Positions 8,930 through 60,278 of a stretch of DNA of 64,000 nucleotides are shown here, one piece after another (within the stretch, counting starts at the first letter, position 1; every line of letters begins with the position of its first letter). The translations under genes and the position numbers were made by a program. The stretch spans positions 873,987 through 937,986 of the forward strand of contig NZ_JAAATY010000001.1 in the NCBI RefSeq assembly GCF_013280595.1. The letters run 5' to 3'. The stretch comes from Kibdelosporangium persicum. Lineage in GTDB: Bacteria; Actinomycetota; Actinomycetes; Mycobacteriales; Pseudonocardiaceae. The notes beneath the pieces were generated by a model that saw only the letters and a list, made by a program, of their open reading frames with translations, had not been told where the DNA came from and did no database searches.

Positions 8930-8979
8930 GGAAATACATTGGCGCGGACCCGGCCTCTCGGCATAAGTTGGATGTACAC

Positions 8980-9215
8980 GAGAGAGGAGGTGGTCCAAAG
9001 TTGTATACCAACAGGACACGTGAGGTGGCTGTCCGCTAAGGACCACCATCAGGCTCAGCCGGCCGGCGAACACGGCAGACGCTGGTCATCCAGCGCCGTG
9101 ACGCGGGCGTGTGGTCGGCGAATCCACAGCAGCCACCGGCCCTCGGGGTTTCCGGGAACGTCCAATCCCGGACCTTGTGCTCAGCACAAGGAGTCGCCCC
9201 GGGGGCTCTTTCCCT
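8980..9215 (+). ncRNA. Candidate structured RNA/attenuator leader between nei and pyrD
   Basis: Three elements are visible. First, AGGAGG (8985-8990) stands before a 12-codon ORF, and GGTGGTCC (8989-8996), overlapping it, is exactly complementary to GGACCACC (9040-9047), which begins at the base after the ORF's stop. Second, within the ORF, GGACA and TGTCC can pair. Third, further down, GCCCTCGGGG (9139-9148) pairs with CCCCGGGGGC (9197-9206), enclosing two hairpins (TCCGGGA/TCCCGGA and CTTGTGC/GCACAAG), a three-way junction followed by TCTTTCCCT. This reads like a translated leader feeding a terminator. Its Rfam class, if any, is not recognised here. Confidence 0.5.
9001..9039 (+). CDS. Putative 12-residue leader peptide (TTG start)
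   Basis: TTG followed by codons for YTNRTREVAVR and TAA, preceded by AGGAGG ten bases upstream. The strong ribosome binding site and its exact downstream complement suggest that translating this ORF controls RNA folding. An alternative GTG start inside the Shine-Dalgarno region cannot be excluded. Whether the peptide accumulates is unknown. Confidence 0.4.
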   Translation: MYTNRTREVAVR

Positions 9216-55698: not shown

Positions 55699-55877
55699 GT
55701 AGTTGTTTCTCCTCGTCTTACGGGCCCGCGGCCGGAACTTCCGCCGTCGACGCGGTGTGGACGAGGCCGGTCTTCGATCGAAGCCCCCGGGTCTCCTCTT
55801 TCCCGCCCGGAAGCCACTACCGAGGACCGGCGCAGATTCTGCCCCGTCCGCCAAGCCCTGTCGTCTTGTCAATGTGC
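55699..55877 (-). ncRNA. pnp leader, candidate Actino-pnp motif region
   Basis: A 179-base untranslated gap between the rpsO terminator and pnp. Actinobacterial pnp genes often carry a conserved leader (the Actino-pnp motif), and this stretch has suitable GC-rich symmetry. A TTGACA on the minus strand (55867-55872 on the plus coordinates) may be a -35. I could not confirm the motif's consensus. Confidence 0.35.
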
Positions 55878-58293: not shown

Positions 58294-58934
58294 GGATCGT
58301 CATCGCCGAGGACAGCGCCGTGCTGCGGGACGGCCTGTCGCTGCTGCTGACCACGCGCGGCCACGAAGTGCTGGCGACCGTCAGCACAGGCGAGGAACTC
58401 CTCGCCGCGGCCACCGAACACGTCCCGGACATCGCCGTGGTCGACGTGCGCATGCCGCCGACGTTCACCGACGAGGGCGTCCGCGCGGCGTTGGCCGTAC
58501 GCAAGTCGCACCCTTCGGTGGGCCTTTTGGTGTTCTCCCAGCACATCGAGACCCGGTACGCCGCCGAACTGCTGGCCGGCGGCGCGCGGGGCGTCGGCTA
58601 TCTGTTGAAGGACCGGGTGGCGGACGTCAGCGACTTCATGTCCGCGTGCGAACGGATCGCGGCGGGCGGCACCGTGCTGGATCCCGAAGTGGTGACACAG
58701 GTTCTGGGCGCGAGCAGGCATGCGCAGGACTTGTCCGCGCTGACGGCACGGGAACGCGAGGTGCTCGGGTTGATGGCCGAAGGCCGCACGAACACCGCCA
58801 TCGCGAAGACGTTGTACGTCACCGAAGGCTCAGTGGAGAAGCACATCAGCAGCATCTTCGCCAAGCTCGGCCTGCCGCCGTCGGACACCGACCACCGCCG
58901 TGTCCTGGCCGTCCTGCGCTACCTGTCCGGCTGA
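58290..58934 (+). CDS. NarL/LuxR-type response regulator
   Basis: A 214-residue protein. The receiver domain (1-120) has the acidic pocket AEDS, the phospho-acceptor in VVDVRMPP and K in LLKDRV. The LuxR helix-turn-helix is LTAREREVLGLMAEGRTNTA followed by VEKHISSIFAKLGL. The stop of the kinase gene overlaps its ATG by four bases. Targets are unknown; its 3' end overlaps the Abi_2 gene by 16 bases. Confidence 0.93.
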   Translation: MRIVIAEDSAVLRDGLSLLLTTRGHEVLATVSTGEELLAAATEHVPDIAVVDVRMPPTFTDEGVRAALAVRKSHPSVGLLVFSQHIETRYAAELLAGGARGVGYLLKDRVADVSDFMSACERIAAGGTVLDPEVVTQVLGASRHAQDLSALTAREREVLGLMAEGRTNTAIAKTLYVTEGSVEKHISSIFAKLGLPPSDTDHRRVLAVLRYLSG

Positions 58935-60208
58935 AGATCTGCCGTCGTCACAGCTGTCTCAAGCGCGTGGAGTGACACGTACCGTTGCCTTTGCACGAAC
59001 GCAGAGCCACGACCAGTTCCGGCATGCGGCAGCGCACCGCTCAACTGCCGATGAGCGGGATCTCCCGGACGGGACAGCAAGAACACCTGGTATCGGCCAT
59101 CCGTCCAGGTGTCGGCAGTCTGCCTGATGACGTTCGCGATCTTGCGGTCGAATCGGTCTGTTGACTCCAGCAACCGGGCAGCCTCTTCCAACGTCCACTC
59201 GATGTTGTCCCGCCGATGAAGGACAGCTGGAACGTCCGGCTTGATCTCTCGATCGGCGTAGAAGGCCACGCGCTCGACAGGCTGGAAGGCTCGACCTGCC
59301 TGACAGATGAACGCACGGCACTCTTCGTAGAGCGGCCAAACACGCTTTGCCGGTACGACAACGGTGTCATCCACTCTGACCGGCCGTTGAGCGTATACGG
59401 CCATCACGTCACTACACCGCCCGATCCACTTCGCGGCATTGGTGTCTATGAACGCGGCAAGCTCAACGACTTGCCTGACCTCGAACGGCATGTCTACGTT
59501 GATCGTCGAATCATGATGGGCGAGTCGATTGCGGAACCTCCGAACCCGCTCGACGGCGACCGAGACCTGCTTGCGCTTCCCCGATGAGTACGGAAAAGCC
59601 TTGTGCAAGCAGTCCCGCCAGAGTTCCTCGTATTTCGGACCGAGCAATCCCGACCAGAATCCGAAGCTCAATCCGGCGATGATCTGGTGCCGCGATTCCT
59701 TCCCCTGTGCTCTTAGGCCGTGTATCAAAGCCCCGTTCGCGATAGTCGGGCCGGATGCGGCCCCTGGCGCCACTGCGGAAACGCCCAAAGACAACCAGTA
59801 TTCGCGGCGTTCCCGCAGCGACGCCAGGAACCACCCCACCGAGCCGACTCCGGCCTCCGGCCGGGGCAGACTCTCATCGAACGGGGACATCGATACACGG
59901 CCTAGCCACTCACGCACGACAGCCACCGCCTCAGCCACGTGGTCTCCACCTGGCGTGGGCAGGAGGAACCATGGGATGCCACATTGCTCTTCACGGGAAT
60001 GCAGCCGAAGACAGTGGTCAAGGGCGTTGCGGAGCAGCACCTCGAGGTGTCCGACGATTTCGAACGCAGCAGCTGACGTGCGAGCACTCCACTCGTACAA
60101 CTCGAGTGCCGCTTGCTTCTCTCCGGCTGCCGCTCGGAGGTAAGGAGCCATCCGTGGCTCAGAAAGCATGTCCCATACGGCGGGCACATCGAACTCGACG
60201 GACGACAT
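58919..60208 (-). CDS. Abi_2/AbiF-type abortive-infection protein (HEPN)
   Basis: A 429-residue protein. The Abi_2 features are a helical N-terminus (LELYEWSARTSAAAFEIVGH), GLSFGFWSGLLG (179-190) and the HEPN RNase motif R-x4-H at R226-N-R-L-A-H231, inside RFRNRLAHHD. A C-terminal region of about 170 residues (AFYADREIKPDVPAVLHRRD onward) is not part of the usual Abi_2 domain. Such proteins are associated with phage exclusion, probably by RNA cleavage. A TAGCAT at 60215-60220 six bases before the ATG predicts a leaderless mRNA. Divergent from the hairpin RNA candidate. Confidence 0.85.
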   Translation of the reverse strand: MSSVEFDVPAVWDMLSEPRMAPYLRAAAGEKQAALELYEWSARTSAAAFEIVGHLEVLLRNALDHCLRLHSREEQCGIPWFLLPTPGGDHVAEAVAVVREWLGRVSMSPFDESLPRPEAGVGSVGWFLASLRERREYWLSLGVSAVAPGAASGPTIANGALIHGLRAQGKESRHQIIAGLSFGFWSGLLGPKYEELWRDCLHKAFPYSSGKRKQVSVAVERVRRFRNRLAHHDSTINVDMPFEVRQVVELAAFIDTNAAKWIGRCSDVMAVYAQRPVRVDDTVVVPAKRVWPLYEECRAFICQAGRAFQPVERVAFYADREIKPDVPAVLHRRDNIEWTLEEAARLLESTDRFDRKIANVIRQTADTWTDGRYQVFLLSRPGDPAHRQLSGALPHAGTGRGSAFVQRQRYVSLHALETAVTTADLQPDR

Positions 60209-60225
60209 AGCGGGATGCTAGTGTC

Positions 60226-60278
60226 GGAAGCGAACGCCCCAGTGTCGCCTCTGTTGCAAGCGCCTGGGGCTTCTTCAT
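60226..60278 (+). ncRNA. Candidate hairpin RNA divergent from the Abi_2 gene
   Basis: GCCCCAG (60236-60242) and CTGGGGC (60264-60270) pair exactly around a 21-base interior containing GTCGCC and GCGC; an outer GAAG/CTTC can extend the stem. TTCTTC follows, so a plus-strand transcript could terminate here. A -10-like TAGTGT (60219-60224) overlaps the Abi_2 -10. An abiF RNA class has been described beside AbiF genes; membership is not tested. Confidence 0.45.

Follow-up and report, generated by a model that had tools for sequence, protein, structure and literature searches.

The closest described relatives of the system considered here are the AbiF proteins with their abiF RNAs (RF03085; RCd22-AbiFCd of C. 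difficile; PbAbiF-AbiFr, PDB 8VZ6), in which the RNA is co-directional with the gene. According to the accessible part of PMC12373285, the abiF transcript of C. difficile contains RCd22 in its 5' region, and the portion of PMC12737573 consulted reports AbiF with its RNA as the ancestor of Cas13. Here we analyze a locus in a 64,000-nucleotide stretch of the Kibdelosporangium persicum genome (contig NZ_JAAATY010000001.1, positions 873,987–937,986; "the window"), where a gene for an Abi_2-type HEPN protein is divergent from a compact hairpin RNA. On sequence grounds, the pair is probably a phage-defence module of the AbiF kind, composed of an RNA antitoxin and a HEPN toxin in a type III-like partnership and transcribed head to head. 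This reading is supported by conservation and covariation, by where the promoters lie, by the linkage to Abi_2 genes and by fold resemblance.

The toxin gene occupies 58919..60208 of the minus strand and, by the list of open reading frames (ORFs), profile matches and the model of an ortholog, encodes an Abi_2-type HEPN protein of 429 aa. An earlier interpretation made without database searches (the sequence-only reading) had recognized an Abi_2 protein with an R-x4-H RNase motif in this ORF, and the catalytic R-polar-xxx-H motif of the HEPN domain is indeed present as RNRLAH (aa 226–231; 59516..59533, minus strand), its R-N-R and A-H positions being invariant in all nine rows of alignment A1. 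The PADLOC model for PD-T4-5 matched the window protein at 2.9e-10 as well as 19 of 19 relatives, and the PADLOC AbiD model matched 10 of the 19. The Pfam Abi_2 profile gave no match to the window protein at E <= 0.1, and it matched 11 of the 19 relatives at E <= 1 (best 1.5e-8). In structural modelling, the HEPN protein is predicted to adopt the AbiF fold. Sequence searches against solved structures returned one irrelevant match in one search and zero in the other, and a PHROGs search with the window protein gave no useful match.

Divergent from this gene, we predict a small abiF-type hairpin RNA, about 48 nt long and ending in a U-rich stretch of its own (60231..60278, plus strand), identified by covariation and by a match to our RNA model R1 (60231–60277; 67.6 bits), with its ends predicted from a -10 box and a pyrimidine tract. 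On the plus strand, stem P1 is a perfect 7-bp helix formed by GCCCCAG (60236..60242) and CTGGGGC (60264..60270), which encloses a conserved GCCTCT core common to RF03085 RNAs (60247..60252) and a mini-hairpin, P2 (UG...CA; 60252..60258), which in relatives differs in length and shows compensating changes; the stem is followed by TTCTTC, in a terminator-like pyrimidine tract at 60271..60277. Among 44 distinct relatives, chosen by a stem and core pattern that does not contain the promoter, predicted RNA lengths are 46–57 nt, and pyrimidines make up 80%, T alone 54%, of the 10 nt that follow the stem. Across the window and 11 orthologous loci, the sequence is near-invariant from the hairpin on, the DNA on the hairpin's far side is unrelated, and on the gene side similarity extends to about the gene end, so that the conserved cassette apparently consists of the RNA, the promoter and the gene only. 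The compact hairpin and the divergent RNA of roughly 50 nt proposed in the sequence-only reading are therefore borne out, the former by near-invariance above chance and the latter as a prediction.

The covariance support that the same reading called for is found across 82 related RNAs. In a 28-row alignment (A3), 92.1% of cells are paired and the covariation score is 0.198 (slid maximum 0.110; 0/500 shuffles); A3 omits 14 rows of the partly misaligned 42-row alignment A2, namely nine short-gene hairpins, L105, L107, L108 and the near-duplicates L009 and L015. In 80 distinct rows (A8), for which 82 sources were selected at E <= 1e-4 and which, being model-fitted, are biased towards the model structure, the score is 0.246 (slid maximum 0.085; 0/500 shuffles). 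Two measures carried no signal: further pair types (181/500, 28 rows) and pairs with changes on both sides (170/500, 80 rows). De novo folding of the 80-row alignment recovers the same two helices; the outer and the sixth stem pairs each alternate between G-C and A-U, and the mini-hairpin remains largely complementary as its length varies.

The RNA has a -10 box, TAGTGT, at 60219..60224 (plus strand), 12 nt before CCCC, and that of the toxin gene, TAGCAT, lies at 60215..60220 (minus strand). The latter stands six bases before the ATG, so the toxin mRNA should be leaderless, and it shares bases with the RNA box, which places the promoters back to back. These overlapping elements, already noted in the sequence-only reading, are conserved in relatives: TANNNT occurs 11–13 nt ahead of the stem in 41/44 (1000 shuffles: mean 1.5, max 6), in a wider set at 10–13 nt in 74/82 (shuffles: mean 3.1, max 9), and on the toxin strand 4–9 nt before ATG or GTG in 28/44 (shuffles: mean 4.4, max 11).

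When R1 was searched without any protein in 297 genomes of the family, it gave 78 matches at E <= 0.01 in 74 genomes. An Abi_2-type ORF is found in the surrounding stretch for 55 of the 78, and the two are divergent in all 55; with the 11 loci of the training alignment and three close orthologs set aside, the proportion is 41/64, and at E <= 1e-3 it is 53/65. Of 14 gene-less matches inspected (the family search supplied 12), some retain the promoter box (L205), one adjoins a remnant that carries an RNRIAH motif (L208) and another follows a tRNA-like end (L193). A strong RNA at L145 (1501–1554; 58.7 bits) is an orphan with no Abi_2-type ORF in its surrounding stretch. With strict filters the unit seems uncommon beyond the family, as a phylum sample contained R1 matches in 6/396 genomes including that of K. 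persicum, with an Abi_2-type gene in one of the five others. The host genome (10.35 Mb) has one strong R1 copy. At L029 we observed two tandem RNA units (2126–2177 and 2237–2288), each with a -10 box.

On plasmids, 1010 records match a short relative, and R1 was applied to 12 of the 40 listed ones; the clearly significant divergent matches among these 12 loci are those of Xanthomonas L227 (44 bits) and Streptomyces L232 (23.5 bits), with no significant RNA by R1 on the enterobacterial loci L228–L230. In L229 and L230, the divergent strand ahead of the Abi gene carries a GTCGCCTC element, close to a terminator-like hairpin, that is not significant with R1. The sole annotated gene of L234, a 1.7-kb E. 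coli plasmid record, is that of an Abi family protein. By eye, proteobacterial Abi_2 loci (L117–L121, L124–L127, L129, L131–L136) mostly have a region of two hairpins upstream that contains a CAGTGAC core, which is possibly a further RNA variant.

The suggestion that the hairpin is an abiF RNA stands in part. The Rfam model RF03085 does not recognize it: there was no match on the window at E <= 10, nor on 14 related loci at E <= 1. What survives is kinship of architecture, together with weak-scoring recognition through the new model. RF03085 scored above cut-off in 4/100 family genomes, and a canonical protein was detected at five of eight RF03085 loci (four over the cut-off, four below), co-directional with the RNA in 5/5. 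R1, which was built without RF03085 loci, matches the same place and strand in seven of these eight, and the top five of its 29 matches are RF03085 places (8.9–14.6 bits). Common to both is a core of GCCUC, mini-hairpin and (A/U)GCG inside a C/G stem that is followed by U. We read the window RNA, from its sequence, as an oppositely arranged branch of the abiF-type RNAs, outside RF03085 as defined; the 55 family loci are all divergent, and the co-directional order occurs as an exception at L104.

A G/C-rich stem followed by a pyrimidine tract is also what a mere transcription terminator or insulator between neighbouring genes would look like. We regard this explanation as improbable, since a terminator would need neither the conserved unpaired core (GCCTCT/AGCG), nor the covarying mini-hairpin, nor the -10 box fixed upstream, and since an Abi_2-type gene lies near 55 of the 78 matches found with the RNA alone. 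Moreover, in viral contigs (IMG/VR) the true core pattern found five stretches, whereas two scrambled-core control patterns found zero.

More closely bound to the question of strand is the proposal that the functional RNA is instead a 5' leader on the toxin strand that controls toxin expression in cis, as might be argued from the position of RCd22 (in the accessible part of PMC12373285). The window sequence contributes a point in its favor and against our own assignment, in that the minus strand alone folds more stably (-23.6 versus -19.8 kcal/mol). However, the toxin -10 box lies between hairpin and start codon, which would leave the toxin mRNA leaderless in 28/44 relatives; wobble pairs in the structure number 15 when read on the plus strand versus 3 on the other; R1 matches RF03085 RNAs in the plus-strand sense; and in Micromonospora chalcea (L104) the unit is flipped relative to the gene, and keeps its own -10 box and T-rich end. 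We therefore consider the plus-strand assignment well supported by the sequences compared, and a leader unlikely.

Lower still in our estimation is the idea that the palindrome serves as a DNA operator through which the toxin gene is autoregulated. It does adjoin the promoter, and symmetric DNA sites likewise keep complementary arms, but the mini-hairpin varies in length and is nevertheless compensated, the internal loop is asymmetric, and toxin-free copies occur in or beside tRNA genes. A crRNA-like guide directing the HEPN RNase to a target, which the sequence-only reading had also entertained and for which one might cite the reported Cas13 ancestry (PMC12737573, portion consulted) and the tandem units of L029, is very improbable and found no support, as the units stop shortly after the hairpin and no spacer-like segment is seen.

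Having preferred an RNA antitoxin, we turn to copies of it without a toxin. Besides the five viral stretches found with the core pattern, a variant pattern found two more, and R1 gives 38–53 bits on all seven (L239–L245); L239/L240 and L241/L242 are near-duplicates, so the seven contigs represent about five lineages. The Abi_2 profile, productive elsewhere, found nothing on the RNA-bearing stretches of the seven contigs, and a homolog search of the seven whole records found no Abi_2 protein, in a search that had no positive control and included some short records and possible fragments. By PHROGs, the RNA of L239 is accompanied by portal, terminase and scaffold genes, and that of L241 and L242 by a major head protein. 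Among the 20 viral-contig proteins searched, matches were 3/3 for L239, 2/2 for each of L241 and L242, 0/6 for L243, 0/2 for L244 and 2/5 (weak) for L245, with L240 outside the sample; given this little support, the viral identity of L243–L245 comes mainly from IMG/VR, plus many tRNAs in L244 and L245.

Four contigs have the copy within or next to tRNA genes, and two have it after the major head protein gene. In L239 and L240 it is encoded on the strand of the tRNAs, 77 nt ahead of tRNA-His; on that strand too, it stands 8 nt after tRNA-Asn in L243 and, among 19 tRNAs, between tRNA-Phe and tRNA-Gly in L244; L245 has 25 tRNAs elsewhere in its stretch, and in L241 and L242 the RNA is about 260 nt downstream of the head protein gene on the same strand. 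The -10 box is absent from its usual place in six of the seven, which would thus ride on other transcripts. Among viral loci that do have Abi_2 genes, 25 of 29 were tested, and five have a divergent R1 match at E <= 0.1. Against named phages, two RNA queries produced nothing beyond short, weak blastn matches, and the ortholog L088 matched a single phage record in tblastn (E 1e-5). From the sequences, we tentatively suggest, as something short of an even prospect, that the lone copies of the RNA antitoxin are decoys with which phages counter the toxin, sited where transcripts should be abundant. If so, decoys and head-to-head modules would make up an arms race over AbiF-type HEPN RNases that is fought through RNA.

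The window gene itself carries an insertion that the sequence-only reading overlooked. A 187-bp element at 59716..59902, flanked by TA at 59714..59715 and 59903..59904, has inserted in frame (189 bp, or 63 codons, including the TA duplication) and accounts for aa 102–164. Its inverted ends, TA flanks (both read in 30 copies) and many copies are those of a miniature inverted-repeat transposable element (MITE), which we take to be of the IS630/mariner type. The DNA has 41 matches in the genome including its own copy, with four others 97–99% identical, and by translation protein residues ~97–170 match 78 further genome places. The insertion is missing from aligned orthologs, and the frame stays open in the window gene. 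It falls at the end of helix 89–105 of the ortholog model; in the window protein model, blocks 101–160 have a predicted local distance difference test (pLDDT) score of 26–35, and adjoining blocks are lowered too. We judge it more likely than not that the in-frame MITE weakens or abolishes toxin activity in this strain; the RNA and both promoter boxes look intact. Separately, reading frames are interrupted in the long relatives L105, L106, L109, L110 and L112, as though the toxin were frequently lost.

The C-terminal region, described in the sequence-only reading as unassignable, is conserved in the alignment of relatives and looks PUA-like in fold: the domain, resembling the ASCH/EVE/YTH superfamily in the models, is placed at aa 276–421 (58946..59383, minus strand) from residues 213–358 of the L088 ortholog model with an offset of 63. 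Pfam profiles for ASCH, EVE and YTH gave zero matches at E <= 10 for seven C-termini. EVE domains are known from toxin-antitoxin contexts (PMC7641849, accessible part). The domain here probably contributes to the selection or sensing of RNA or of modified nucleic acid. We found no description of a fusion of an Abi_2 HEPN domain to a PUA-like domain in the open-access literature searched; the text of PMC3710099 has no word beginning with "pua" or "asch", and the accessible text of PMC7641849 none beginning with "hepn" or "abi". Elsewhere in the window, Rfam recognizes an Ms_IGR-5 small RNA (8976–9213, plus strand) and an Actino-pnp leader (55766–55831, minus strand).

If the module works as we envisage, its overlapping promoters would yield, from one strand, a leaderless mRNA encoding the HEPN RNase and, from the opposite strand, an RNA of about 48 nt that provides its own terminator; the hairpin RNA would bind the HEPN dimer and keep the RNase inactive, and infection, by disturbing the supply of RNA, would free the RNase and halt growth. 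Transcription, binding, neutralization, release and its trigger, toxicity and effect on phage are all inferred steps. The head-to-head form outside Rfam would offer many natural RNA–toxin pairs, with and without the PUA-like domain, for studies of inhibition and release, and it hints at where the missing antidote of single-gene Abi_2 defences could be sought. With the toxin-free viral copies, counter-defence against AbiF through RNA becomes open to direct testing.

Relative to AbiF and abiF RNA, then, the locus shares a predicted HEPN RNase of AbiF fold and an RNA with a GC-rich stem, GCCUC core, mini-hairpin, (A/U)GCG and U-rich end. It differs in that the window-type RNA is predicted to be transcribed from a promoter of its own, divergently from the gene, whereas abiF RNA is co-directional; in that this RNA is missed by RF03085 and is usually a single unit; and in the PUA-like C-terminal domain of the long branch of window-type proteins. 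That domain resembles the EVE, ASCH and YTH domains of defence proteins in fold, but not in sequence profile. PD-T4-5, an Abi defence gene of an E. coli plasmid, is alike in that its PADLOC model fits the window protein and all 19 relatives, and unlike in that the accessible part of PMC9519451 mentions no RNA partner for it. With type III toxin-antitoxin systems (ToxIN), the locus has in common an RNA proposed as the antitoxin of an endoribonuclease; the toxin fold is, however, unrelated, and the ToxIN RNA is a tandem array co-transcribed with the toxin (PMC12373285, accessible part). Tandem repeats upstream of the toxin are not seen here, the genome having one strong copy; L029 has two tandem units. 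Lone viral copies of defence RNAs have precedents in the phiTE pseudo-ToxI and in Racr (PMC3475682 and PMC10651486, each in the part consulted), to which the copies described above are similar as solitary defence RNAs in viral genomes, and from which they differ in being abiF-type, with a putative decoy function. The open-access literature searched describes the co-directional form, and no account of an abiF-type RNA in divergent arrangement was found in it.
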